In this document: piece after piece, positions 4,901 through 20,534 of the stretch
Position numbering within the stretch: the stretch's first letter is position 1
How the letters are laid out: every line of letters starts with the position of its first letter
DNA from: a virus
IMG/VR virus record: IMGVR_UViG_3300044641_006891
Location: 1 to 20,534 of that record
Strand: one strand, 5' to 3'
DNA length: 20,534 bases
Program-made: the position numbers and the translations under genes
The notes under the pieces: generated by a model
Seen by the model: the letters and a program-made list of their open reading frames with translations, nothing else
The model's database searches: none
Told to the model about the DNA's origin: nothing

Positions 4901-5605
4901 CTATTTCTCCGAATGATGCGCGCGAGTATGCTGCGTCAAATTTCCTTTTCCTCCTTTAATTTCTTTTCCACAGTACTCACAAAGAAGGGTCGGTATATTT
5001 GCTCGCGCTGCGCTTAAAGCATCTTTATGATTTAACGTCAACGGAACTCCCTTTTTAGCACGTGAAATTGCTTCACCGACTGAAGTGGGACGTGGGCCAA
5101 GATTTTTCCCCTTTCTGCCAATGCTTATTTTTTGTTTATGAGCCTCGGTTCGTGGCCCTAGCTTGCGTCCTTTGCGTGTGTTGCTCATTTTTTGTTTTGT
5201 TTCAGGTGTGTGACCGCCGGATTTGACCGTCCAATGGTTCTCTCCTGATTTTGCCTCAGATGACGCAATCCTAGCTTGAGCAATTTGCCATGCGGAAGGT
5301 AGTCGACCAGCGTTATTTTTAGTCACGCCAGCCATACTCCACACTGCGTGTGCCGTTTTTGCAGTTTTCCAGTGTTGAACTCCATACTTTTTACGGTATG
5401 CTCTCCACAGCAGTAGATGAGCGATAAAATGCTCCCTTGCCATCAAATAAACCACACGCCTATTTTCCCCAAAAACACTCGTCGGAAAAATGTGGTGCTC
5501 CTCCACATAGCACGGGGCAGACTTTTTAGTCCATCCCCGCTGCTCTGCTTTGCGCATTAGTTTGATGTAGTGTTTTAGATAATTCACGCAAGACAAAACG
5601 GTCAT
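4901..5605 (-). CDS. HNH homing endonuclease with NUMOD-like repeats and zinc finger
   Basis: This 234-residue protein has an HNH core at residues 33-66: EEHHIFPTSVFGENRRVVYL followed by REHFIAHLLL, a form common in free-standing phage endonucleases. Residues of about 120-187 carry NUMOD3-like DNA-binding modules (GENHW, then two HTPETKQKMS/RTEAHKQKIS units each ending in KG..LGPR). The C-terminus is a C2H2-type finger, C209-x2-C212 then H226-x3-H230. It probably nicks or cuts a target at the baseplate/portal junction and spreads by repair. The gene lies between the gp25-like and portal genes, looks more AT-rich than its structural neighbours, and donates the portal's ribosome binding site at its 3' end. 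A GGGTAAAA octamer lies 6 nt before its ATG. Confidence 0.88.
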   Translation of the reverse strand: MTVLSCVNYLKHYIKLMRKAEQRGWTKKSAPCYVEEHHIFPTSVFGENRRVVYLMAREHFIAHLLLWRAYRKKYGVQHWKTAKTAHAVWSMAGVTKNNAGRLPSAWQIAQARIASSEAKSGENHWTVKSGGHTPETKQKMSNTRKGRKLGPRTEAHKQKISIGRKGKNLGPRPTSVGEAISRAKKGVPLTLNHKDALSAARANIPTLLCEYCGKEIKGGKGNLTQHTRAHHSEK

Positions 5606-6031: not shown

Positions 6032-6330
6032 CACATGTACCGTCTTGTTATTTGAAATTCTAGCGCCGTTATTCGCTTTTTAGCTTCGTGGCGCGGAAGA
6101 TCGCTTTCCATCACCTTTCGGATCTCGGATTTGATTTCACTGTATCCCAGAGAAGTGTAGAACTCCGGGTCGATGTTTTTCTCTTCTTGTTTATGTCCAG
6201 AAAGAAGGCGGAAGCAGAGTAGGTCTAATGAGATACCCTGCTCACCCGCCTGTTTTTCTAGGGAAGAAAGAAGAGAGCCTGGAAGCAGTAGTGTCAGTTC
6301 CTCGTACATTTGGCTCTCTTGTGTTATCAT
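6031..6330 (-). CDS. Unknown 99-residue protein between sheath and baseplate genes
   Basis: The product is not recognised. The start overlaps the sheath stop (ATGA) and the stop overlaps the gp25-like start (TGATG), so it is almost certainly translated as part of this tail operon. The sequence is largely helical and charged. Residues of about 15-45 (LPGSLLSSLEKQAGEQGISLDLLCFRLL) faintly resemble the helix-turn of small ribbon-helix-helix proteins, but this is weak. Its place suggests a tail or baseplate helper. Confidence 0.7.
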   Translation of the reverse strand: MITQESQMYEELTLLLPGSLLSSLEKQAGEQGISLDLLCFRLLSGHKQEEKNIDPEFYTSLGYSEIKSEIRKVMESDLPRHEAKKRITALEFQITRRYM

Positions 6331-9300
6331 CCGTTATTTTGGCCCAGACCCTGGATGTCCAGCTCATTCTGCATCTGCCCGATGGCGACGCGAATGAGGT
6401 CGATTTGAATGCGCTCGAGCGTGGGCACGGGGGTCACGAACACCTTGGCGTTCACGATGCCGTTCTCGAGGTTCTCGGCAGTGTTGATGCGGCGATCGCA
6501 TACCACCTGAAAAGCGTCGCTAGGACGAGCACCGAACAGTGCGCCCTTGACATACAGTTGGTTCAGCACGCTGTTACCGATCGAAATGATCTGGTTGAAC
6601 ACCACACCGAAACCGTCGATCACATTGAAAATCTGGCTGTCGAAGGCGTTGCGCAGTGAGCCGTACACTACATTCATGATCACGCGAGTGTTCACGAACT
6701 GGTACAGACGCTGTTGAGAGTCAGCAGCATTGACGCGAGTGCGGCCGCCCCAGATGAACACGGCTGTCTGGGGATAGCCAGGCAGTGTGCGAACGGCATT
6801 GCAGCCATCGGGGTTGAGCAGGTTCTGCTGAGCAGAGTTGATGGGAATCTGAACACCCACCGCATCAGCCAGCTGGTACTTGACACCAGCAGGCGGGAAC
6901 TGGTAGCCTTCCGCGCGGTAGCGGCGAAGAGCGACGCCAGTCACATAAGGTGACGGCGGGATGTACTGGCCTGAAGCATTCAGGATGTACGAGCCATAGT
7001 ATGCGATGAAGCCGAAGGGGTTGAAGTAGCGCTGTGAGTCATCGTAGAGACGGTTCACGTTATCCACGCCAGCTTCGATGAACAGCGCCTGGGGAACACC
7101 ATTGGTGCCCACACCACGCAGAGCCTGGTCGATGAGCTCGGTGGAAGTCACAGCGTCGAAACGCCACAGGGCGATAGACGGAGTTTCCTGAGAAGTGTAG
7201 GTGAAAGTAGTCTGTGAGCCGTACAGCGGGAGGCTGTAGGGAGTCAGGTCTTCACCAGCATTCACGACCACCCAGCTGTAGGTGCCATTGGACTCATACA
7301 CCACCAGCGTGTCGCCAGTCACTACGGCAGTGGAACCGTCTGGGGCGAAACCAGGAGCGATAACGTCCAGATAAACACCAGCCAGAGGTGCCAGAGCAGC
7401 CTGAGAAACCGGAGCAGTGGCGTTAGCCAGACCAGCGGCGGCAGCATAGCCACCGACGATGACGCCTGAAACCAGGGATGTAGCACCGCTGTAGTTTCCA
7501 CCAAAAATGGGACCGGTAGCAGGCACCAGATAGGACTCAGTCATAAACTCCTGAGCCACGGTCGGAACGCAGAAGAAGTTCTGAGCGCCGGTGGTTGTGA
7601 CGTTGATGGAGGTGACATTGATCGTCCAGGCGGGGTTGATGACCACGCTGGTGTTGTTCCAGTCGCACTGAGAATAGGCTTGCAGAGGACCCACAGGACC
7701 ATTCGACTGCACGCGGCAGATGACGGTCTTACCATTAGTCACCAGAGTAGTGTCCACAGCGACGTAGGTGCCATTAGCGGAAACGGGAAGCTGACCAGTA
7801 GCAGCCGAGTTAGCACCTGCATTGAGGATGGTGCCACCAGCGTAGTTCTTCAGTTTGGTGTCCACAGCAGTCACGACTGAACCAGCACCAGAGATGGGGT
7901 TCAGAGTAGCCGCGGTGAAACTGACGTTACGACCAGTCACCCATGGCGAGGTATAGCCGGAAATGACGGCCTGGGTGTTACCAGCCAGGTTGTAGCCTTC
8001 AGCGGAAAGGTCGGCGTAGGCCAGCAGCGTGCTCGTAGCCTGACTAGTATAGCGTGTGCCCACACCCGCAGGGATTTTGGCGCCCAGGCTATCAGTGATA
8101 GACCACCTGACTGTGACGATGTCACCCGTAGCAACGGGGAAGTCAACGCCGAAAATGACACCTTCAGTGTCGATGACACCCGTGGCCACACCGTTGTTAT
8201 ACCATTCCCAGGTCAGCGTCGAACCCGCGGCAAGTGCGTTCTCGACCCACACGGGAGGCAGGAACATGACCGCTTCACCTTCAACGTTCCAGAAACCCTG
8301 CGAGCCAGGCAGCAGACCAGAAGTCTGGTCGATGGCGGTAGCCCTACCAGAGGCATCACGGGTGACGAACTGAGAGGCGACGGAAGAAATGGCGCCGGTG
8401 TTACCGTAGAGGAGAGCGAGAGCGCTGTTTGCTACGGCAGGCTCGAGCAGTTCGAGTTCAGGGAGCCAACCAGCGTCGACGGTTTCACCGTAAGGAGCCA
8501 CGGTGCCTTCGCCCAGCACAGTAGAACTCTGTGACAGGAAAATGGACAGCGGAGCATTACCCTGTGAGGCCACGGGAGGAGCCGAAGCGCTAGAAGCCTG
8601 GTCGTAGATGGAGCTGCTGTCGAAAGCATACTTGCGACCGCGGATGAGCGGGAAAGTGCCGGCCTCGTTCAGCTGAGTAGAACCTTGCAGTGCCGCCAGA
8701 ATGGTGGAGTAGCCGATGACCGGAGTGGCAGTAGCCACTGGGTCGGACGAAGGCACCTTTACATAGGAACCAGCAGCGTAGTTAGTGGCGCTAGAAGCGA
8801 CCACGAAGTTATCTGCGTCCACCACTTTCACATAGTAGGCATTCAGTGCTGACTTCGTAGAAGATTTGATCAGGAAGTAGCCAGAAGCCGTGATCATCGG
8901 CGCGGTGAAGAACACCTTAACGCCATCAGACAGACCATGAGCGTCGCAGTTGAAAATAGCGACCTGGTTGTAGGTGCCGGTAGGACCAGCGGTGACCTGC
9001 AGGGAAGGGTTCAGGAACGCACGGTTGAACATTCCCAGAGTGAACGTGCTTGTGGGATCCTGCAGAGTGCCGGGGAAATGCTGGGTGTTAACCCCATGGG
9101 CGCGACTGCGGATGTTCTGAAGCAGGTTCGAAGTCTGTCCGTTAATGGTGACGGGCAGATCGTAGGCGGGGTTAGCGTAGCTGATCTGAGCAGATTCGAG
9201 ACCCGTGCCCACGCCCACATTGATAGCACCTGGAGGCAGTGTTGCCACCTTAGAAGTGCCGCCAGCGGCTACGACGAAGTTGTAGATCGAAACAGCAGCT

Positions 9301-10781
9301 GAAGAAGTAGCAGCCAGATAGATCACATTCTTCGGGTAGTCACCAGACAGATTAGTGTCATATGGCGGAGCTACCACGTAGACATTGCCTTGAAGGCTGA
9401 AGAAGGGGTTTGTGGAAGAACCGGCGCCACTCAGCACCACTTCTTGAATCTGGAAGTCGACGGGCCAGAAAGTGTTTGTGTCGACGTTGATTTTACCGAA
9501 CGAAGGCACCAGGGGGGCATAAATAGTGTAGATGCCGCGATCCAGAGCGCCGACCTTTACATCGGGTGCGATGTTGGAGTTGGTCGACTCTTGAATGCCG
9601 ATTTTAGGTGAACCACCACCGACGATTGTCTGATAGTCCAGACGTGAGAAGGTGACAGAATCGCCGGTCCATTCGTAGATGGCGTTATCCACCAGATACT
9701 TCAGACCCTGAACCAGATCGGCAGCTGCCTGGTGGGGGATGTAGTTCTCGTACTTATTGAGATCAGTGACGAGGAAAGGACCGGGGTCAGCCAGTGCCAT
9801 CCACTTGTAGTTGTTGTTGGCGCAGTGGTCAGCAGCTTTAGCACCCACAGAGGAGCGACCGGCAGCATCAAACTGAGCGTAGGCGGTCGGGGTGATCAAG
9901 TAGCCCTGATCCTGCTGGCCGTCAAACGCGGTCTCAATGCACTGGATGTAGTCCTGAGGGACACGTGTAGCATTCGCCTGCAGACCATTGACATTCTGAA
10001 TGTCGTAGGTGTTCTGTGTGAAAGCGAAAGTGCCGGACACGGGATCGGTCTTTGTGACGATGGTCACGGAAGAGTCGAAAGTTGCGCCTGCGATAGACAC
10101 GTAGCCGTTCTGTGAGTTGGATGCAGGATCCACGTCATTCACCAGACCGAAGCTACGCACATACACCGAAGTGCGAATGCTCGGGTTGCTTTCGATAGCA
10201 GCAGCCACAGCGCTTGAGATGGCGGCAGAAATCTTACGGTTGTTGACCTCATCACCAGCCACGTAGTTCACGGGGATGACAACGGGGACACCTAGCCATT
10301 CGCCGCTGGCGGTATAACCGGTAGAACCATCGCCAGCCACCAGACGGGTGCCGTTCAGGATCATCTGAACGTAGACCTTATCGCCAGCCATCAGTGAAGA
10401 GGGCAGAGCAGCGGCACTGCTTTTCGAAGCTGAGGGGAAGAACTCGACTTCCACAATGCTGTTCGGAGTGCCTACACGAACCACGCGAAGGTCACCGACC
10501 TGAGCATTTTGGAAAAACTCGTTAACGCAGTTGTAGCTCAGCAGGGGAATGCGGTCGGTAGGAACCGAACCACCCACCAGAACCCGATAGTCAGCTAGAC
10601 TTGTTACGGGGATGGGCTTGTTAAAAGGAAAAACTGTGACGGGGGCCGACTCTGGTGCTTCGACAAGCATGTAAACGGTGCTAAAGCTAGCAATAGCAGC
10701 CGAAGCACTCAGGCCCGCCCGTTCGTTCAGGAAAACGCCAGGAGCGCCGGGTGTGTCACCACCCATGGAAAATGTAGCCAT
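6327..10781 (-). CDS. Giant contractile tail sheath protein
   Basis: This 1484-residue protein is the tail sheath that contracts around the tube during injection. The N-terminus has the sheath form (GAPGVFLNERAG, then STVYMLVEAP and NEFFQNAQVGDLRVVRVG). A second conserved block near residues 290-340 contains GYLITPTAYAQF and KWMALADPGPF. The C-terminal 270 residues carry the polymerisation domain: NPFGFIAYYGSYI, LPGYPQTAVFIWGGRTR, YQFVNTRVIMNVVYGSLRNA and NVIDGFG. Between them, roughly residues 420-1210, is a large beta-rich insertion with Ig-like patches (for example STLTWEWYNNGVATG). T4 gp18 has 659 residues, so this sheath is more than twice as long, and the extra mass probably decorates the tail surface. 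ATG at 10781 has AGG 7 nt upstream. The gene is preceded by an 88-nt leader and a GGGTAAAA octamer. Confidence 0.95.
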   Translation of the reverse strand: MATFSMGGDTPGAPGVFLNERAGLSASAAIASFSTVYMLVEAPESAPVTVFPFNKPIPVTSLADYRVLVGGSVPTDRIPLLSYNCVNEFFQNAQVGDLRVVRVGTPNSIVEVEFFPSASKSSAAALPSSLMAGDKVYVQMILNGTRLVAGDGSTGYTASGEWLGVPVVIPVNYVAGDEVNNRKISAAISSAVAAAIESNPSIRTSVYVRSFGLVNDVDPASNSQNGYVSIAGATFDSSVTIVTKTDPVSGTFAFTQNTYDIQNVNGLQANATRVPQDYIQCIETAFDGQQDQGYLITPTAYAQFDAAGRSSVGAKAADHCANNNYKWMALADPGPFLVTDLNKYENYIPHQAAADLVQGLKYLVDNAIYEWTGDSVTFSRLDYQTIVGGGSPKIGIQESTNSNIAPDVKVGALDRGIYTIYAPLVPSFGKINVDTNTFWPVDFQIQEVVLSGAGSSTNPFFSLQGNVYVVAPPYDTNLSGDYPKNVIYLAATSSAAVSIYNFVVAAGGTSKVATLPPGAINVGVGTGLESAQISYANPAYDLPVTINGQTSNLLQNIRSRAHGVNTQHFPGTLQDPTSTFTLGMFNRAFLNPSLQVTAGPTGTYNQVAIFNCDAHGLSDGVKVFFTAPMITASGYFLIKSSTKSALNAYYVKVVDADNFVVASSATNYAAGSYVKVPSSDPVATATPVIGYSTILAALQGSTQLNEAGTFPLIRGRKYAFDSSSIYDQASSASAPPVASQGNAPLSIFLSQSSTVLGEGTVAPYGETVDAGWLPELELLEPAVANSALALLYGNTGAISSVASQFVTRDASGRATAIDQTSGLLPGSQGFWNVEGEAVMFLPPVWVENALAAGSTLTWEWYNNGVATGVIDTEGVIFGVDFPVATGDIVTVRWSITDSLGAKIPAGVGTRYTSQATSTLLAYADLSAEGYNLAGNTQAVISGYTSPWVTGRNVSFTAATLNPISGAGSVVTAVDTKLKNYAGGTILNAGANSAATGQLPVSANGTYVAVDTTLVTNGKTVICRVQSNGPVGPLQAYSQCDWNNTSVVINPAWTINVTSINVTTTGAQNFFCVPTVAQEFMTESYLVPATGPIFGGNYSGATSLVSGVIVGGYAAAAGLANATAPVSQAALAPLAGVYLDVIAPGFAPDGSTAVVTGDTLVVYESNGTYSWVVVNAGEDLTPYSLPLYGSQTTFTYTSQETPSIALWRFDAVTSTELIDQALRGVGTNGVPQALFIEAGVDNVNRLYDDSQRYFNPFGFIAYYGSYILNASGQYIPPSPYVTGVALRRYRAEGYQFPPAGVKYQLADAVGVQIPINSAQQNLLNPDGCNAVRTLPGYPQTAVFIWGGRTRVNAADSQQRLYQFVNTRVIMNVVYGSLRNAFDSQIFNVIDGFGVVFNQIISIGNSVLNQLYVKGALFGARPSDAFQVVCDRRINTAENLENGIVNAKVFVTPVPTLERIQIDLIRVAIGQMQNELDIQGLGQNNG

Positions 10782-11595: not shown

Positions 11596-12003
11596 TTACT
11601 TAAGTTTTGAGAGAATGTGTTTCCAGGCTATTGGAACGATCTGTTTCAGAGACTTGTCTGGAATGCCCATCCATGGGCGCGCGGGCATTTTTGCCGTGCC
11701 GCTTTGGTGGTAGCGTCCATATTTGGTTGTTTTGACGTCGAAGCCGTCACCTCTTGGCACGATTTTGGCCGTGTCCTGCATTTTGCCGGTTGCCCGGAGA
11801 ATCGGTTGCCCAGGATAGCGTTTCTGTTTCCACTTCCTGTAGCCACGGCTCAGAGAAGCCCATGGGCGACCTGTAGTAGGATCTGACTCCTGACGCCAGG
11901 GAACCGCGTGGTCTTTCAGCAGAATTGGCGCCCATTCTTTCTGGGTGGGTTTCCACCATCCCAGATTCATTTTTGGCAGCTTCTTCATCTGAAAGCTAAT
12001 CAT
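11596..12003 (-). CDS. Mu gpG-like virion morphogenesis (tail completion) protein
   Basis: This 135-residue protein fits the phage virion morphogenesis / tail completion family of Mu gpG and P2 gpS, which acts at the tail terminus. Features in order are W-x2-F-like helices at the start, DPTTGRPWASLSRGYRKWKQKRYPG, then ILRATGKMQDTAKIVPRGDGF, YGRYHQSGT with the family's HQ-x-G, and a RPWMGIPDKSLKQI ending. The ATG overlaps the chaperone stop (ATGA), indicating coupled translation. Another start at M6 is possible. It lies directly downstream of the frameshifted tail chaperone, which supports a role in tail assembly. Confidence 0.75.
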   Translation of the reverse strand: MISFQMKKLPKMNLGWWKPTQKEWAPILLKDHAVPWRQESDPTTGRPWASLSRGYRKWKQKRYPGQPILRATGKMQDTAKIVPRGDGFDVKTTKYGRYHQSGTAKMPARPWMGIPDKSLKQIVPIAWKHILSKLK

Positions 12004-12428
12004 CTTTTTCTCCTCGACGCTTTTTTTGCTTCATCAGCTTGCCTTTCATGGAAGTCATTCATTACCGAGATCATCACCAGGATTTTGCTGATTGGTTGTG
12101 ACTCCAGCCAGTCGATTGAACTATCCCAGCGCTCTTTGCAGAGGTGGAAGGCAGTTTTCAGCCAGTTCTCCACAGTGAATAGGCGTTCTTCCAGGAGGTT
12201 TTCAGTGATCCATTTGACTACGGTAGTGAAGCGCTTCGCAGGAATGCGGTCAAGGAGCTCATCATCCGAAAGCATAAGTCTGGTGACAAGCTCCATGAAA
12301 GAGCGTTTCTGCTGCCGAAGGATCTGACCTAGATAGAAATCCTTCGGTGTTATCTCCCTGAAATGGAGTGTGATCTCGTCGGAGCACACGATCAGGTAGG
12401 TGAAGTCTTCTAGGTCAGTGACCGTCAG
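12000..12428 (-). CDS. Tail assembly chaperone -1 frameshift extension
   Basis: This open frame has no good start of its own. It is read by a -1 shift from the upstream chaperone gene: the zero frame ends C CCA AAC TGA, and after slipping, CTG ACG GTC ACT continues open for 142 residues. The product would be a 253-residue fusion, equivalent to lambda gpGT or the Mu gp41/42 pair, which recruits tape measure and tube proteins during tail assembly. The extension contains EITLHFREITPKDF and a helical end rich in charged residues (NDFHERQADEAKKASRRKR). A GTG at 12389 could be a fallback start but would lose 13 open codons and has no ribosome binding site. The downstream gene overlaps its stop. Confidence 0.8.
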   Translation of the reverse strand: MTVTDLEDFTYLIVCSDEITLHFREITPKDFYLGQILRQQKRSFMELVTRLMLSDDELLDRIPAKRFTTVVKWITENLLEERLFTVENWLKTAFHLCKERWDSSIDWLESQPISKILVMISVMNDFHERQADEAKKASRRKR

Positions 12429-12760
12429 TTTGGGTCTTCGTCGTCCCCGTTCGCTTTACCGACTAGATCGCTGAGCTTACGGAAATCTTTGACGCCGAGA
12501 TCGAGGATTTCGTCATAGGTGATCTTGTCTTCGCCGACGATCAGACGCTCGATAACCCGGAGTCCTTTTTCGATATCACCTGCTTTAGAGAGTTCTTTTT
12601 CTAGATAGATAAGATCACGTCCGGTCATTTCCCGGATCACGATCTCACGGCCATCACTTATCACCGTAGAGAAAGTTTCCAGTTTGGAAAAAGGCGCCGG
12701 GGTTGATTTTTTCACGGGTGCCACAGTTGCTTGTGTGGCATCATCAGATAGTGTTCTCAT
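12425..12760 (-). CDS. Tail assembly chaperone (zero-frame product)
   Basis: This 111-residue protein resembles the Mu gp41 / P2 E tail assembly chaperone family: a disordered N-terminus, then TVISDGREIVIREMTGRDLIYLEKELSK, a leucine-rich middle and a helical DFRKLSDLVGKANG ending. These proteins keep the tape measure soluble and are replaced in part by a frameshifted longer form. The gene ends exactly at a slippery heptamer. Its ATG overlaps the stop of the GIY-YIG endonuclease gene (CAATGA), and a GGGTAAAA octamer lies 25 nt upstream inside that gene. Confidence 0.75.
   Translation of the reverse strand: MRTLSDDATQATVAPVKKSTPAPFSKLETFSTVISDGREIVIREMTGRDLIYLEKELSKAGDIEKGLRVIERLIVGEDKITYDEILDLGVKDFRKLSDLVGKANGDDEDPN
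12428..12434 (-). promoter_or_regulatory. Programmed -1 ribosomal frameshift site C CCA AAC
   Basis: The heptamer fits the X XXY YYZ pattern. In the zero frame the codons are CCA and AAC followed at once by the TGA stop. Re-pairing one base back gives CCC and AAA, and the next codon CTG opens the 142-residue extension. The downstream frame is in the -1 register, as required. No strong stem-loop immediately downstream was identified by eye; the adjacent stop codon may itself promote slipping. Confidence 0.8.
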
Positions 12761-13434
12761 TGGTTAGTTGAGTGAGTTTGACTTGTTTTACCCTTAAGTC
12801 GCCTCTCCTCCCAGGCCTTTTTAGCGGATTCTGACTTTTTCTTTCGAACTTCATCGGAGTCTTTTCTACCAAAAGAAGGATGGTCTTCTCCAAACACTCC
12901 AAACCACGGATTTTTCTCTCCTCGCTTTGCTTCAGATAGACATTCTTTGGTCTCATCACTATGATTTTTTCCGTAAAACCCATTATTTTCACCCTGAAAC
13001 TTTACTTTCTGCTCTTCAGTACGTTTCTTGCCGAAGTTTGGGTTATCTTCACCTCTTTTTCCGTACATTGGGTTATTCTCCCCCGACCGATCATAAAGTT
13101 TTTTCTTTTGATCCAGGGTCAGTGTGTATCTATTTCCAAAATTAGGATTCTCTTCCCCCTTAAATCCGGTGACAAACTTATCAGAAGTTTGGTATGACAA
13201 GTTAGCAAACTGAGGATTTTCTACTACGCCAAATGCTTTTTGGTATTGGATTTCCAACCAGACAGCACCTTCAGGTGTTTTTGAGTAACCTAGAATGATT
13301 TTATCATCGGGACAGAATGACTTGTCTTTAAAAGAACCTAAATAGCAATCGTACGGGTCAAGTGTGCTATGTTTCCCGATATAGTCTCTCCCTTGTGGTT
13401 TTTTCTCAAAGGAGTTATAAACAGTATGAAACAA
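12757..13434 (-). CDS. GIY-YIG homing endonuclease with six NUMOD3-type repeats
   Basis: This 225-residue protein has an N-terminal GIY-YIG-like nuclease: HTVYNS at 3-8, GRDYIGKHST at 15-24, YLGSF at 31-35 and a likely catalytic glutamate in VWLEIQYQKAF at 61. Six GE-x-NP-x-(F/Y)G modules follow, at about 93, 118, 128, 148, 172 and 182, matching NUMOD3 DNA-binding motifs seen in Seg-type phage endonucleases. The start is TTG at 13434, two bases after the upstream stop, with no Shine-Dalgarno sequence; the reading frame has no better start. The gene is visibly AT-rich. A GGGTAAAAC copy lies just upstream and another in its last codons, so the gene is bracketed by them. It probably inserted between the pol operon and the tail operon. 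Confidence 0.85.
   Translation of the reverse strand: MFHTVYNSFEKKPQGRDYIGKHSTLDPYDCYLGSFKDKSFCPDDKIILGYSKTPEGAVWLEIQYQKAFGVVENPQFANLSYQTSDKFVTGFKGEENPNFGNRYTLTLDQKKKLYDRSGENNPMYGKRGEDNPNFGKKRTEEQKVKFQGENNGFYGKNHSDETKECLSEAKRGEKNPWFGVFGEDHPSFGRKDSDEVRKKKSESAKKAWEERRLKGKTSQTHSTNQ
12786..12793 (-). promoter_or_regulatory. GGGTAAAA octamer before tail chaperone
   Basis: Inside the last codons of the GIY-YIG gene (Lys-Gly-Lys), 25 nt before the chaperone ATG. Confidence 0.6.
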
Positions 13435-13436
13435 AA

Positions 13437-13667
13437 TTAGAAAGGGGACTGAACATCAAGTTTTACCCTCAGGGCGAAGAGACGGGCTTCGGTTTCCATT
13501 AGCCCTTCCCCCGGAGGTAGGTTGAGATAGATGGCGTTCGCTATCCGCCAGCTGACTTCTGCGTCTTCTACGGGTCCGGAAATAAGGCGGTCTTCGACAT
13601 CGTCTAGCCAGAACGAAACGACTTCCCGCCTGAACTCAGGATCTTGAGGAAGCGGAAAAGGTGTCAC
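13437..13667 (-). CDS. Unknown 76-residue protein downstream of DNA polymerase
   Basis: The product is not recognised. It starts at GTG with a GTGA overlap onto the preceding 60-residue gene, so it depends on coupled translation. It is acidic and helical (EFRREVVSFWLDDVEDRLISG, then SWRIANAIYLNL and EARLFALRVKLDV). Its last codons contain the GGGTAAAA octamer that precedes the GIY-YIG endonuclease. Because it shares an operon with the polymerase, a replication-linked accessory role is possible but only inferred from position. Confidence 0.7.
   Translation of the reverse strand: MTPFPLPQDPEFRREVVSFWLDDVEDRLISGPVEDAEVSWRIANAIYLNLPPGEGLMETEARLFALRVKLDVQSPF
13461..13468 (-). promoter_or_regulatory. 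GGGTAAAA octamer before GIY-YIG gene
   Basis: Inside the last codons of the 76-residue gene, 26 nt before the TTG start of the endonuclease. Confidence 0.6.
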
Positions 13668-13846
13668 AGTGCTTTTGATAGAGCCAGTGCGCCTTCGGGG
13701 GTGTAGTAGTCAGAGTTGAAGGCACAGTTTACAGAAGAAAGGATTTCCCGTCCTTTTTTGTCATATGGGGTCACTAGATAGTAGACATCCCGCGCTCCGA
13801 AGAATGGGATAACAGATGCTGAGTCGACACGAGATTTCTTTGACAT
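13664..13846 (-). CDS. Unknown 60-residue protein downstream of DNA polymerase
   Basis: This small basic-to-neutral protein is not recognised. Its ATG overlaps the polymerase stop as TAATG, and its stop overlaps the next start (GTGA). A central stretch, ARDVYYLVTPYDKKGREI, suggests a small beta fold, and the C-terminus (YYTPEGALALSKAL) is helical. The tight coupling to the polymerase is the only functional hint. Confidence 0.7.
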   Translation of the reverse strand: MSKKSRVDSASVIPFFGARDVYYLVTPYDKKGREILSSVNCAFNSDYYTPEGALALSKAL

Positions 13847-16602
13847 TAGATGAGACCTTTTTTGATGGCTTCATAGCGCGTTGTGAGTTTCTGAATGGCG
13901 CCGATTTCGGAAAGTTCCCGCATGGAATATTCTATTCCAGCAGGTTCCCGATCGCCGTTAGGATTTGACGGCGACACGGTGCATTCAGTGGGTGACTTTC
14001 GAATGCGATCATCGATCGCGACAGCCGAAAAAAATGCTCGGCTCAGAGGAAGATCCGGAATCCCTACGCTAGACTGAAAAAGTGACCACGTGTATAGGTG
14101 CGCGATTTGAAACAGCACAGCGAATTGTTCTGCGTACTTTTCAGGCGTCATGTACCAGATTTCATCATGTATGCTGATGATGAAGCGGCATGGAATTTTA
14201 TATTCGTCAGCCAGCCATTGTGTGGTGGTGAGAATTACTGAAAGGATCTCCGCGCCCGACGCTTGAATAGTCCAGTTAATACGCCCGGTGTGAAAATCAT
14301 CACCCACAGCCGCAGGACGCATAGCGGTGGAAATTTTAGTGCCTAGACATGGGAGTTGCGGCACTCGCATTTTCATGGAGATTTGCTCCATCAGGTTGAA
14401 GCACCCAGAGTCAGTGCCTCCTTCATAGAGCCCATCTCGTTTCACACCCTTTTTGCCTTCGAGAGCTCGAGTGGCGAAACGCCGAAGTTCAGCGTCAGGC
14501 TTGTCAGGAAACTTACGCTTGATGGTGGCCTGCACAGTGCGAAGACCCGCACCGTAGAGAATTGCGAAACCGATCCCTTTTGACGTGTCCCGATCTACAC
14601 CGGCTACTTTTGCCAGTGCGCTGTGCGGATCAGTGCCATTCTCTTTCGAACCGCTAAGCACATTGAACCCGAATGGAGAACAGCCAACATGACCGCCTTC
14701 CCATTTGTCTGAGTAGATTGAAGCAATTTGTAATTCTTGGCCATCAAAATCAGCACCGACGATTTTCCATCCGTCAGGTGCCACTACTCGTGTTTTGAGT
14801 TCGGTTCCGATGCGCCAGTCTTTGGTTTTACACATGGTCACCATGAGAGGTTCCACGGTTCGCCTTGTCACAGTGCCATGCGCCAGAATGTCTGGAACGC
14901 AGAGCAGAGCATCCTCACCATGCGGATTACTGGTCTGAAGGTAGATGCGGCTCATCACACGCTTACGCACTGACGTCCAGTAGGAAATAGCATTCGCGAT
15001 TTGAAGCGCTCGTTGGGCTTCGGGAAGGTCGCTGCTGAGACGACCTACTTGCATGTGGTCCACGAATTCCTTACTGAGAACGCCCCCCACATTATCGCCA
15101 TTGCCTTTGGGGTGAGGGATCTGCTGAAGTCGTCCATCTTCATCGTGGAAGCACCAGCCTTTATCAGATGTGAGAAGCATCGGTGAGCCCTCCCATTTCA
15201 GTTTCAGAAGCAGGTGGGCGAGATTGCTTTTCACCCCGATTTGAGCATCGGGATCCTTGACGAACTGGCGGTACCAGTTTGGAACACCGGCATATTTTCC
15301 CTTAGCGCTTTTCACTTCCCAGTCGAGCTGAGAAAGCCACGGATCAGACTTCACCCACTTTTCACGCTTTTCCAAGTCTTCAATTTTAGACCACTCTTCA
15401 TAAGCGGACGCAACAAGGCTACGACAGAGTTCGGTCATTTCATCCGTGTGCTCCTTAAACACTCGCTCGCAGTCTCCTATCCATTCCTGCCAGTCTTTCG
15501 TCAGCGGGATGATGGAACCATTCAGGTGGTAATGACCGGCTAGACCCACAAGAGACGGTGTGGAATCGAGGTATTTCGGCCACAGCGCCTGAAATAGTTC
15601 GGCAGTATAGAACGCATCTTTAATGGCGTAGTCTAGTGCTTCGGGAAGCATAGTTTTGATCTGAGACAGGTCCGTAGCCTTCACGAAAATGTCACGAACT
15701 ACTTTATCGCTTGCACCTAGTTCGGTGACTTCCTCACCAAAATATTTCCTAACGGCCGCTACGTGGAAGTTATAACACTGAACCAGCGAGTTAGTGGCGC
15801 CCTGGTCTAGCCATTTCGGGGCATACCGCAGTCGGCGCTTTTCTTCATCGGTGAGAACTTCTGGGTCCTTACCTGCCAAAACGTAAAGCCAACGTTGACC
15901 GCTAGCAAGCCCAGACACGCCAATATGAGCGGAAAGTGTGTCAAAGTAGAAGTTTTCTGGACGAGTGTTGTCAAGGGAATAACCTTCGCGGGCTCGAACC
16001 CTATCGTAGGACACATTATGACCGGGAATAAACCGGTCCCTTCCAACAGGGATCAAATTAAACTGGTCCCAGTCTTTCTCAGGAAGCTCGGGGTTTAGAA
16101 GCTCTTTTGCTAACCAGACATAAGCTGCTTTTTCGCTCAGCGCTGTGCCGATAATGGGAAAAGCACCGCCATACACATAGGTTTCCGTGTCAAATGTAAA
16201 GGCTTCTTCAAGAGGAAAAGGAACTTCTTCTACTTTCCACTTTTCCCCAACAAGCTCGTAGCGTCTCCATCCTGCTTCGTAGCAAAATGCGCTCACAGGA
16301 GGAAGCGGCGGAAGTTTGCATTTTGCGAAGTCATCACCGAGTTGCTTATACCGGCCGACTTGCTCAGCGGCGATGGCTTCGTAGTGCTCACGTAAAAAAC
16401 CACCCTTAAGACCCGGTAGTGGCAATGCGCCATCATAGAGGCCGTCGGGGTGGTCTACAGGAACGGGAATGTCGAACTGCTTCAGCAGTCCTTTAGCCCG
16501 TCGCACAGCCGCGGTCGTCATTTCAGGAACATTTTCGTTCCCGAACACTTTGTCGCGGAGCTCTGAGTTCAGAACCGGGTAACCGAGAGGAGTCTTTCGC
16601 AT
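13846..16602 (-). CDS. DNA polymerase gamma-like family A DNA polymerase
   Basis: This 918-residue replicative polymerase with 3'-5' exonuclease is colinear with mitochondrial POLG from end to end. The N-terminus has PLGYPVL and AAVRRAKGLL. Exonuclease motifs are intact: D138-x-E140, GHNVSYD with D200, and Y325-x3-D329. The spacer keeps POLG landmarks (FDTLSAHIGVSGLASGQR, DPWLSQLDWEV, NWYRQF). Polymerase motif A is GADFDGQELQIAS (D618, E623), motif B R671-x3-K675-x3-F679-x3-Y683-G, and motif C IHDE (D813). The C-terminus ends with DLPLSRAFFSAVAID and SPSNPNG, hallmarks of POLG. Human POLG has 1239 residues; the phage protein lacks the import presequence and has a shorter spacer. ATG at 16602 is supported by the POLG-like N-terminus, though no Shine-Dalgarno sequence is seen. 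A 28-nt promoter-like element lies 23 nt upstream. Confidence 0.95.
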   Translation of the reverse strand: MRKTPLGYPVLNSELRDKVFGNENVPEMTTAAVRRAKGLLKQFDIPVPVDHPDGLYDGALPLPGLKGGFLREHYEAIAAEQVGRYKQLGDDFAKCKLPPLPPVSAFCYEAGWRRYELVGEKWKVEEVPFPLEEAFTFDTETYVYGGAFPIIGTALSEKAAYVWLAKELLNPELPEKDWDQFNLIPVGRDRFIPGHNVSYDRVRAREGYSLDNTRPENFYFDTLSAHIGVSGLASGQRWLYVLAGKDPEVLTDEEKRRLRYAPKWLDQGATNSLVQCYNFHVAAVRKYFGEEVTELGASDKVVRDIFVKATDLSQIKTMLPEALDYAIKDAFYTAELFQALWPKYLDSTPSLVGLAGHYHLNGSIIPLTKDWQEWIGDCERVFKEHTDEMTELCRSLVASAYEEWSKIEDLEKREKWVKSDPWLSQLDWEVKSAKGKYAGVPNWYRQFVKDPDAQIGVKSNLAHLLLKLKWEGSPMLLTSDKGWCFHDEDGRLQQIPHPKGNGDNVGGVLSKEFVDHMQVGRLSSDLPEAQRALQIANAISYWTSVRKRVMSRIYLQTSNPHGEDALLCVPDILAHGTVTRRTVEPLMVTMCKTKDWRIGTELKTRVVAPDGWKIVGADFDGQELQIASIYSDKWEGGHVGCSPFGFNVLSGSKENGTDPHSALAKVAGVDRDTSKGIGFAILYGAGLRTVQATIKRKFPDKPDAELRRFATRALEGKKGVKRDGLYEGGTDSGCFNLMEQISMKMRVPQLPCLGTKISTAMRPAAVGDDFHTGRINWTIQASGAEILSVILTTTQWLADEYKIPCRFIISIHDEIWYMTPEKYAEQFAVLFQIAHLYTWSLFQSSVGIPDLPLSRAFFSAVAIDDRIRKSPTECTVSPSNPNGDREPAGIEYSMRELSEIGAIQKLTTRYEAIKKGLI

Positions 16603-16625: not shown

Positions 16626-16653
16626 ATTGTAGGAGGCCGGAGGCCGTGTAAAC
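16626..16653 (-). promoter_or_regulatory. Promoter-like element before the DNA polymerase
   Basis: On the coding strand the 28 nt read GTTTAC, two bases, GGCCT, eight bases, CTACAAT. TTTACA and TACAAT resemble -35 and -10 hexamers with a 15-nt spacer, two bases shorter than usual. The same arrangement recurs at 19157-19184. The TACAAT ends 23 nt before the polymerase ATG. The spacer holds a tandem GGCCTCC. Confidence 0.5.
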
Positions 16654-17405
16654 TACAGGGCGTCGATGGGCGGAGCAGCCAGGTTATCCTGCACAGGATA
16701 GATAAATGAGTAAGCGATGGCCCGCGGGTAGTTGATGGCAGGGTTGGGACCGGTTGTGCCGACCTGGTTTTGGAAGTAGCGGTGGGGGACCTGGTTCCAC
16801 TTCGGCTGACCTGCAGCTGAGACATTGGACACGGTGGCGACAGCCACGGCGAATCCGTAGCCTGAACCGAGAGCTCCAGGAGACGCCACGCCGAGGCCGT
16901 CACCCGCAGTGTAGCCGCTACCGGCGGAGTTGAGAGCCACTAGCGTCACGTTTCCGTTTACGTCGACGGTGATGTTGAGAGTAGCGCCAGTGCCTGAGCC
17001 GCCCACAGTAGCCACATTCGTGTAGGAGCCGGGAGTGTAGCCCTGACCGGCTTGAAGGCGACCGAGTGAGGCGACGACCCCTTGTTGGGCTGTGAATGAG
17101 TGGACCGAGTAGTTGAACATCGTCGGGTCACCCGAAGTTGTTCCGTAGGAGGGGACAGGACCCAGTTGGGTGTAGTATTGCGCGTAGTTGGTGGTCCAGC
17201 CGAGCATCGCCGGCGTGTTCTGAGGCACTGACGGGAGAATGGCTGCGGCGCCTGTGGTCTCCTTATATTTCCAGGCCCTTTTATTCAGAGTGTTAGGGGC
17301 GGCCTCCGACAGGCCATTGTAGATGATATTGCCTAGGGTCTCGAGTTGGGGGGCGGTTAGGGTGGCGGCCACCTCTTTTGCCATTTGCACAGTCCGTGGG
17401 ATCAT
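16653..17405 (-). CDS. Probable virion protein with G-x-GYT beta domain
   Basis: This 250-residue protein has a helical N-terminus (residues 1-50), then a region rich in G, T, Y and P. Residues of about 118-190 form a repeat-like beta domain, GQGYTPGSYTNV then GGSGTGATLNITV and AGSGYTAGDGLGV ending in GYGFAVAV. This glycine/tyrosine pattern is common in phage tail, fibre or decoration proteins and in cyanophage virion proteins. The exact role is unknown. The gene sits alone between the unknown gene block and the polymerase, away from the main tail cluster. A GGGTAAAA octamer lies 28 nt before the ATG, like several other structural genes here. Confidence 0.6.
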   Translation of the reverse strand: MIPRTVQMAKEVAATLTAPQLETLGNIIYNGLSEAAPNTLNKRAWKYKETTGAAAILPSVPQNTPAMLGWTTNYAQYYTQLGPVPSYGTTSGDPTMFNYSVHSFTAQQGVVASLGRLQAGQGYTPGSYTNVATVGGSGTGATLNITVDVNGNVTLVALNSAGSGYTAGDGLGVASPGALGSGYGFAVAVATVSNVSAAGQPKWNQVPHRYFQNQVGTTGPNPAINYPRAIAYSFIYPVQDNLAAPPIDAL

Positions 17406-17787: not shown

Positions 17788-18588
17788 TCAGATGTGTTGA
17801 GAGAACATTTTAGCGTCGAAGTCTTTGACACCTGACGAAGCATAAACTTCATCTTTGTGTTTGCGATAAATTTCGTAGGCGTCAAACACGGAGCTGAAAT
17901 ATATCGGACGATCTCCAGGATTATCCTGCCATCTCAGCATCTCGGTTAAAGAGAGAGGAACGTCAATGTCCCATTGCTCGTCGCGGCTACCATAGAGTAA
18001 GGGGAGCGCGTCATTTTTCCACCACTCACAGATGCAGTTTATAGTCTGCTCCCACGCCAAAGGATCGGTAATGTGGGTGCTAGTTTCGGACCTCACCCAG
18101 TTTACATATTCCCGCCCGCGTTTGATTACTTCTTCAGCCGACACGGGTAGCGTTTTGATGAAATAGGCTTCATCTTGTCCTTTCACCACTCGCTCAATAA
18201 CCGCGGGGAAGAGAAAAGCACTGGAAGCCAAACGAACATCAGCAGCATTTTCACAAATGTGCATAAGCACACACTCTAGAATTGCCATAGTGCTTGCTAT
18301 GGCTAGCGTGTGCGGGTCTTCTGTTTCCTCTTGCGGAACCATTTTAGGTAGCTGTTTCCTAGTCTGCTCAAGCTCGCGCTCTAGCCGTCTAACCTCTCTG
18401 CCAAGCTCACGCTCTAGTTTTACTTTGAAGATTTCGGTCTCAGTGACAAGCTTATCAAAGCGCATGTCTATTTTTTCTAACTCGGCATCAAGTGCTTCTA
18501 CACTTAACTTGAGATTAGAAACTTTTTTCTTGAGGGATGAAACTGAACCCCTCAGCACGTTGATTGGATATAGTAGGTTGTCGTACAT
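17788..18588 (-). CDS. Unknown 266-residue protein with N-terminal coiled coil
   Basis: No family was recognised. Residues of about 14-80 form a long coiled coil (VSSLKKKVSNLKLSVEALDAEL and on to RRLERELEQTRKQL). The rest appears globular, with tryptophans and acidic patches (EWWKNDALPLLYGSRDEQW, MLRWQDNPGDRPIYFSS). The ATG overlaps the upstream stop (TGATG). Its first residues, MYDNLLYPINVL, resemble those of the gene just upstream. It could be a DNA-binding or assembly factor, but nothing decides this. Confidence 0.7.
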   Translation of the reverse strand: MYDNLLYPINVLRGSVSSLKKKVSNLKLSVEALDAELEKIDMRFDKLVTETEIFKVKLERELGREVRRLERELEQTRKQLPKMVPQEETEDPHTLAIASTMAILECVLMHICENAADVRLASSAFLFPAVIERVVKGQDEAYFIKTLPVSAEEVIKRGREYVNWVRSETSTHITDPLAWEQTINCICEWWKNDALPLLYGSRDEQWDIDVPLSLTEMLRWQDNPGDRPIYFSSVFDAYEIYRKHKDEVYASSGVKDFDAKMFSQHI

Positions 18589-19136
18589 CAGATAGGCTTG
18601 ATCGTGGCTTTCAGTTGGTCAGTTTGAATGTCAATGACTTCTACATTGAAAGCATAAACTTTTTCCGGATCCGTCAGCAAGTGAAACCGCCCAACGAATG
18701 ACTCGCCGTCTTCAGAGCGAAGGTAAGCGTTCCCAGGGGTGGGAGGAGAACACAAAGCGATGTCACCAACAAAAGGAGGATGAGACTCCTCAATGGCTTT
18801 TACAAGGCGAGAGTAAATCGCGGCACTAGCCGCAAACTCATTGTCGTTTGTGATAGCAGCTCGCACTTCACCATCAATTGCCTCAAGAACGGACATGTAG
18901 CCGTTATCCATCGAGATTTCACATCGGGCACCACCATCAAACACGGCAAAGCACACTTCCGTAGCTTCAAACTCGCAGTCTTCCGGCGACTCCTGGTCAG
19001 AAAAGTCATATTCAAGGAGATCATAAAACGCAGTTTTCAGCGTTTCGGGATCTGGACCACCGAGGTAGTTGGCGATGGCGTAGAAAACCCGAGGGTTTGA
19101 CAGCAGTCGTTCGACTGGATAAATCAAATCGTCCAT
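18588..19136 (-). CDS. Unknown 182-residue acidic protein
   Basis: No family was recognised. The protein is acidic (pI clearly low), with a helical N-terminus and a likely beta-rich second half (FVGDIALCSPP, GESFVGRFHLLTDPEKVYAFNVEVIDI). It begins MDDLIYPVERLL, close to the start of the next gene's product. A purine-rich GTGGAAAA precedes the ATG. It is the first gene of a three-gene coupled block and has two upstream signals, a GGGTAAAA octamer 50 nt away and the 28-nt promoter-like element 20 nt away. Confidence 0.7.
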   Translation of the reverse strand: MDDLIYPVERLLSNPRVFYAIANYLGGPDPETLKTAFYDLLEYDFSDQESPEDCEFEATEVCFAVFDGGARCEISMDNGYMSVLEAIDGEVRAAITNDNEFAASAAIYSRLVKAIEESHPPFVGDIALCSPPTPGNAYLRSEDGESFVGRFHLLTDPEKVYAFNVEVIDIQTDQLKATIKPI

Positions 19137-19432: not shown

Positions 19433-20534
19433 TCACACGGTGACCTCATCTAGGTTTGCTATTTTGATGCCTTTGGCACCGGGTTTCCCAGCTTTTACGG
19501 AGACTGGGAACAGCTCGACTTTTTTCTTCCTGGGAGACACCCAAGGAACGGTGTAAGAACCTTCTCCGAAGTGGAGAAGCGTAGCGCCTTCTGGAAGCAC
19601 TCGCTTTCCACTGCTGGTCGTCCGGCACAGGTCAGCACCGCTTACCATCATGGCTTTCATCTGATCCTCTAGGGTGAAGACCGCCAGAAACTTCCGCTCT
19701 TTTACTTCTGCTTCACGTTTGGCGAGCACCACTGGAGAGTAGCCGTCTGAGATAGGACCTTTGAAGTTCGAAGCTACTTTTTTCAGCGTCCCATCTTGCG
19801 TCATTAGAACCACTTTTTCCGAGCGGTCTACTACCATGGCACCGCGGGGTCCTTTGGCCTGAGTGACGACGCCTTTCTTCTGGTCTACCAGCATGAAGCG
19901 CGGTTTGGTTTGCAGACTTGGTGCCGATGCTTTTTTAGTGGTTTGCACCACGTAGACATCAGGTTTGGCGATGAGCTGTGAGTGGCGGGCATTTCCATGA
20001 CGCTTGGCGAGCTCGTCCATTTGCTTGAACACCCACTTTTGACGGGCTTCTGGCACTTCCACCAGTTCCTTCAGTTCCACACCAGTTTTTTCGAGACCGG
20101 TTTTCTCAGTCTCTAGGTCGGCGACGTCGAGGTTTGTCAGTTGGCGCAGACGCATTTCGAGAATGGCTCGTGCCTGGTCAGCTGTGAACTTTAGGGAGCG
20201 ATTGCTGACTAGTTCTATTAGCGCTTCTTTGTGAGACTTGGCCGCACGGATGACTTTGATGACTGCATCTATCTTGCTGATGGCCTTGATGAGACCCGTG
20301 ACGATCTCCAGACGAGCCTCGGTCAGATTGAGCTCATGTCGAAACTGGATCTCCATGCGGGCCATACGCCATTCGAACCACTTCTGACAGACTTCGATGG
20401 GACTGAGTTCGACCGGTTTGAGACCGTCGATGACCAGCGTTTTTGCCGAATATTTGGTGTCGAGACTGGTGACCGCATAGAGTTGCTTGGCTAGCTGCTC
20501 AGCTTGAACACCGGGTTTTGCCACGATTGTGATG
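19433..20534 (-). CDS. Type II DNA topoisomerase subunit A (GyrA/ParC/T4 gp52 type), 3' part
   Basis: The frame is open at the window edge, so the catalytic tyrosine and winged-helix part lie outside; a GTG at 20524 is internal. The first visible region matches the GyrA/ParC coiled-coil gate: TLVIDGLKPVELSPIEVCQKW, WRMARMEIQFRHELNLTEARLEIV, then the primary-dimer signature LKFTADQARAILEMRLRQLTNLD. The last 170 residues have weak blade-like segments (EKVVLMTQDGTLKKV, RKFLAVFTLEDQMKAMMVSG) that recall a reduced GyrA C-terminal wheel. The enzyme probably removes supercoils ahead of phage replication. Large phages encode such subunits; whether this is gyrase-like or topo IV/T4-like cannot be told from this part. 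Confidence 0.88.
   Translation of the reverse strand, partial: ITIVAKPGVQAEQLAKQLYAVTSLDTKYSAKTLVIDGLKPVELSPIEVCQKWFEWRMARMEIQFRHELNLTEARLEIVTGLIKAISKIDAVIKVIRAAKSHKEALIELVSNRSLKFTADQARAILEMRLRQLTNLDVADLETEKTGLEKTGVELKELVEVPEARQKWVFKQMDELAKRHGNARHSQLIAKPDVYVVQTTKKASAPSLQTKPRFMLVDQKKGVVTQAKGPRGAMVVDRSEKVVLMTQDGTLKKVASNFKGPISDGYSPVVLAKREAEVKERKFLAVFTLEDQMKAMMVSGADLCRTTSSGKRVLPEGATLLHFGEGSYTVPWVSPRKKKVELFPVSVKAGKPGAKGIKIANLDEVTV

Follow-up and report, generated by a model that had tools for sequence, protein, structure and literature searches.

A POLG-subfamily DNA polymerase gene in a genome fragment of an S-CBWM1-like phage

We have analyzed a 20,534-nt stretch of viral DNA (IMGVR_UViG_3300044641_006891), referred to here as the window, and found that its polG gene encodes a complete POLG-subfamily family A DNA polymerase with a 3'-5' exonuclease domain. 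The assignment of this product (the window protein) to the POLG subfamily is firm. Very probably, it serves as the replicative polymerase of a contractile-tail cyanophage of the S-CBWM1 group (Aokuangvirus), as a monomeric, accessory-free POLG member with 3'-5' proofreading. The question that this gene touches is the source of opisthokont POLG. As phage POLG enzymes were the sole close relatives of the mitochondrial replicase that we found outside eukaryotes, each new phage clade helps root the history of this replicase, and the window protein adds a well-supported member, from a cyanophage group that is large and for the most part uncultured.

The polG gene and its product

The initial annotation had placed the gene exactly, leaving its strand unstated; the open reading frame comprises 918 codons, from ATG to TAA, on the minus strand. 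The gene and its landmarks are as follows:

13846-16602, minus strand: polG, 918-residue POLG-subfamily family A DNA polymerase with 3'-5' exonuclease (Pfam, PDB search, PHROGs, tree and fold)
15616-16194, minus strand: Exo I FDTET (residues 137-141), Exo II GHNVSYDR (194-201) and Exo III YAIKD (325-329), aligned with human and yeast POLG
15103-15345, minus strand: short spacer of 67 residues, from DPWLSQLDW (420-428) to PHPKG (496-500), by anchor positions and alignments
14161-14757, minus strand: motif A GADFDGQE (616-623), motif B RDTSKGIGFAILYG (671-684) and motif C SIHDE (810-814), by alignment

Residues D138, E140, D200, D329, D618, E623, D813 and E814 align with the catalytic residues of the human and yeast enzymes, the order of Exo I-III and Pol A-C being kept. 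The POLG landmarks on which the initial annotation had relied were located in the order claimed (FDTET, GHNVSYDR, YAIKD, DPWLSQLDW, TVTRR at 577-581, GADFDGQE, SIHDE and PSNPNG at 878-883). In Pfam, the mitochondrial exonuclease family PF18136 (DNApol_Exo) covers residues 60-344 (E 2.6e-56) and the family A polymerase domain PF00476 yields a modest match (1.4e-9), while phrog_22619 matches at 7e-224, the family being already in PHROGs.

Given the modest PF00476 match and the general family A motifs that the window protein shares, one could suppose a T7-like or Pol I-like enzyme that is no POLG and has acquired its motifs by convergence. We regard the chance of this as negligible in view of the wide margins for POLG in sequence, tree and fold, as evidenced by: 1) phmmer against all PDB chains, in which the sole matches at E<=1 were yeast, human and mouse POLG (best 3e-112); 2) a profile of the phage enzymes, which gave a single colinear match to yeast Mip1 at 3.8e-197, with the best Pol I at 4e-12; 3) a tree of the phage enzymes and human and yeast POLG with six T7-like or Pol I-like outgroups, in which phage enzymes, the window protein included, and both eukaryotic sequences formed a single clade apart from T7-like enzymes and Pol I (100/100); and 4) an AlphaFold model based on 20 viral sequences (pLDDT 84.6, pTM 0.84), which matched POLG structures with Z up to 36.8 over 827 residues at 3.0 A, compared with Z 15.9 for Pol theta and Pol I, the best of the remaining families among the matches listed, where absence of a fold family does not rule that family out. 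Foldseek searches with this model likewise favored POLG (E 7.5e-58 vs. 3.6e-12 for the next). These data bear out the claims of a POLG homologue and of a protein to which T7 polymerase and Pol I are far less closely related than POLG; a T7-like or Pol I-like identity is ruled out.

Spacer length, Phe679 and proposed function

The distance between the DPWL..L.W and PH.KG anchors, which is 67 residues in the window protein, amounts to 84 in S-TIM5, 95 in Mic1, 103-105 in A-HIS, 114 in Mip1 and about 262 (a hand count from alignments) in human POLG. In the alignments, nothing in the window protein corresponds to human residues of about 501-567 and 625-750. Judging from spacer length and the alignments to human POLG, the AID, the spacer subdomain that binds POLG2, is not present in the window protein, since a spacer of only 67 residues leaves no room for it; among those proteins of the 20.5-kb fragment scanned with Pfam and PHROGs (a part of the total), there was no match to a POLG2-like subunit. 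The description "full-length" in the initial annotation is not supported in the human sense, as the human-type AID spacer is missing; the exonuclease and polymerase motifs are all in place, and the POLG fold extends over the whole chain of the model. Human POLG (8d33 and others) has the same fold (Z about 34-37) and all catalytic motifs; its spacer, however, is longer by ~200 residues and includes the AID.

Closer in this respect is yeast Mip1, which is without most of the AID, has a shorter IP and is monomeric yet processive (PMC4362329). Mip1 (9c51) is 33% identical to the window protein, with a whole-protein colinear match and a short spacer, but differs in its mitochondrial targeting signal, fungal C-terminal extension and 114-residue spacer. 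The window enzyme can best be regarded as a Mip1-like form that lacks the fungal C-terminal extension and, by analogy with Mip1, may well work without a POLG2-like partner. In all likelihood, it would copy the phage genome with 3'-5' proofreading, presumably as the main replicase of the phage, although a second replicase could be encoded beyond this fragment.

In motif B, Phe679 aligns with Tyr951 of human POLG. The human Y951F enzyme keeps its activity and discriminates against ddCTP about 2,400-fold more strongly (PMC5702650). Because Phe679 occupies the position of Tyr951 and because of this Y951F effect, the window enzyme is predicted to reject dideoxynucleotides; conversely, the S-TIM5-like and Mic1 enzymes, with Tyr in motif B, should by analogy not reject them. 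This Tyr951-to-Phe difference is directly testable.

Relatives and the origin of mitochondrial POLG

A phage POLG is no novelty: phage polG has been published from 2011 on, the first report being credited to Chan et al. 2011 for the Acaryochloris phages A-HIS1/2. Sabehi et al. (2012) and Xu et al. (2018) followed, and Mic1 was described in 2020 (PMC7156551, PMC4928673); S-TIM5 and S-CBWM1 are further published carriers. These papers already discuss a common origin with the mitochondrial enzyme, and the general point that cyanophages carry POLG, from which the mitochondrial enzyme might stem, dates from 2011. The window protein is a further member of this published family. What we add is mainly the position of Mic1 nearest the eukaryotes in the tree, the lack, in the records that we searched, of partners of the T7 type, and the exchange of Tyr951 for Phe.

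The database search that the initial annotation had called for recovered, besides the PDB matches to POLG, the viral relatives S-CBWM1, S-TIM5, Mic1 and A-HIS1/2. The nearest of these, gp77 of Synechococcus phage S-CBWM1 (ATW62761, annotated as DNA polymerase gamma), is 56% identical over its full length and shares with the window the polG neighborhood, the 67-residue spacer and Phe in motif B; it differs in having a ~35-residue insert after TDPHTALA. The cyanophage S-TIM5 polymerase (AEZ65654), also of the POLG subfamily, is 37% identical over 97%, but carries HDS for HDE in motif C, NTxTNR for GTxTRR and Tyr in motif B, and falls into a separate clade. Throughout the S-TIM5 clade (L004 and relatives), motif C reads HDS and the GTxTRR position is NTxTNR or close to it. 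Microcystis phage Mic1 polymerase gamma (ORF85/86) is a POLG-subfamily enzyme with about 33-34% identity (33% in the phage collection); unlike in the window, an intron within motif A interrupts the gene, and the enzyme has Tyr in motif B and is sister to eukaryotic POLG (100/100). The A-HIS1/A-HIS2 enzymes (annotated as polg) resemble the window protein in subfamily and in Phe in motif B at 29-31% identity, but have a spacer of 103-105 residues and an extra insert and branch closer to eukaryotic POLG.

Within the POLG/phage clade, Mic1 grouped with the eukaryotes (100/100); A-HIS1/2 joined next (99/99) and the S-TIM5 clade after them (87/74), the S-CBWM1 clade, window protein included, being outermost. 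Mic1, rather than the window protein, is thus well supported as the phage enzyme closest to mitochondrial POLG. With the polymerase domain alone, Mic1 and the eukaryotes remained together (95/98), the remaining order being unsupported. Cyanophage and opisthokont POLG share one ancestor, but the data do not decide donor and recipient, as a very long branch, of about 6 changes per site, leads to the outgroups and a topology with all phages in one clade was not rejected by the AU test (p 0.378 for the full analysis and 0.42 for the polymerase-domain analysis).

For a transfer from phage to eukaryote, in which opisthokont mitochondrial POLG would derive from the Mic1-like branch of cyanophages with the window clade as an outer branch, we see an even chance. 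The nesting of human and yeast POLG inside the phages with T7/Pol I outgroups, and the persistence of the Mic1-eukaryote grouping in the polymerase domain, argue for this direction, as does the finding that the phage clades are about as distant from one another (33-39% identity) as from Mip1 (32-33%). In addition, PMC12230644 describes POLG as restricted to opisthokonts. Weighing against it are the long outgroup branch, the surviving one-phage-clade topology and a eukaryotic sampling of two sequences only (human and yeast, both from PDB alignments, with those parts of the human spacer that did not align left out). The opposite direction, with capture of a eukaryotic POLG in the ancestry of Mic1 or of the polG phages as a whole, is compatible with the rooting and with Mic1 being sister to both eukaryotic sequences. 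We nevertheless consider it unlikely, given that 1) phage polG is deep and diverse, with 138 distinct viral POLG-type polymerases collected (many from IMG/VR) in 26 clusters at 75% identity; 2) there are three phage lineages besides Mic1, with stable synteny in the clade of the window; and 3) the window protein is without the AID.

The initial annotation had also invoked the proposed T-odd phage origin of mitochondrial replication enzymes. Neither T7-type RNA polymerase (PF00940) nor DnaB/gp4-type helicase (PF03796) was found in any of 14 polG-phage records, ten of which may be incomplete; T7 and the T7-like phages CRP-113 and EXVC019P, as controls, were all positive for both. This search covered the records of relatives, that of the window being only 20.5 kb. 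As for other replication proteins, S-CBWM1 and A-HIS1 encode annotated primases bearing a DUF5906 domain (below the Pfam cut-off in S-CBWM1), and Mic1 has an SF1-type helicase. With both T7-type partners missing in the 14 records, there is no support for polG phages having brought the whole T-odd set. Returning to the phage-to-eukaryote direction, we tentatively suggest, at somewhat less than an even chance, that opisthokont POLG arose from a Mic1-like cyanophage enzyme operating outside a T7-like replisome, so that the mitochondrial polymerase, Twinkle and POLRMT would come from different viral sources, with the window clade as an outer, accessory-free form bearing Phe for Tyr951.

Phage context and mobile elements

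The initial annotation had described polG as a viral gene in a phage operon, and its surroundings agree with this. The stop codon of polG overlaps the ATG of the next gene (TAATG), and its neighbors include the following:

19433-20524, minus strand: phage DNA gyrase/topoisomerase IV subunit A, C-terminal part, cut by the contig end (PF00521)
18588-19136, minus strand: 182-residue homologue of S-CBWM1 gp75
17788-18588, minus strand: 266-residue homologue of S-CBWM1 gp76, upstream of polG
13664-13846, minus strand: 60-residue conserved downstream neighbor overlapping the polG stop codon (synteny comparison)
13437-13667, minus strand: 76-residue conserved gene downstream of polG (synteny comparison)
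12425-12760, minus strand: 111-residue conserved gene downstream of polG (synteny comparison)
11596-12003, minus strand: 135-residue homologue of S-CBWM1 gp81, annotated as tail completion / stable head joining
6327-10781, minus strand: tail sheath, 1484 residues (phrog_17610, phrog_23)

Baseplate, portal and head protease genes were also recognized in the window by Pfam and PHROGs. Several IMG/VR contigs share the gene order and sequence, as, for the most part, does S-CBWM1 (gyrA-gp75-gp76-polG-gp78-...-gp83), in keeping with membership in the Aokuangvirus-like (S-CBWM1) group by synteny and homology around polG. Photosystem reaction-centre genes (psbA/psbD-type) occur in eight of the 14 polG-phage records, including two (G001 and G002) with polG 74-75% identical to that of the window; the window itself, as a 20.5-kb fragment, contains no photosynthesis gene. 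From this synteny and the photosystem genes of its polG relatives, the window phage is most likely a cyanophage.

Two scans for bacterial POLG across one genome per species (84,980), using short patterns that may miss a divergent homologue, returned a single 9.6-kb contig of a Microbacteriaceae MAG. The POLG fragment on this contig (L088, 8001-8984) has phage synteny; its place in this MAG may reflect mis-binning or hint at a non-cyanobacterial host.

The tail sheath of the window is unusually long, and its match in two related contigs (L014 and L018) skips ~260 residues (804 to 1063). Directly upstream of polG, a 250-residue gene (16653-17405) is only 39% identical to its counterpart in another contig, L002, vs. 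95% for polG, and thus appears to be a fast-changing neighbor. A NUMOD3 homing-endonuclease-like gene at 12757-13434, between the 111- and 76-residue genes, is probably a recent insertion, as it is missing there in L002, despite the 95% identity in polG. A second such NUMOD3 gene lies at 4901-5605 between the portal and baseplate genes. Rfam searches of the window and of contigs L349 and L006 gave no match. In the S-TIM5-like phage L349 (5986-10532), polG stops at motif A and picks up again only at motif B, the gap of about 2 kb holding two GIY-YIG-like homing endonuclease ORFs; together with the intron in motif A of Mic1, this suggests that the catalytic motifs of polG seem to be targeted by mobile elements.
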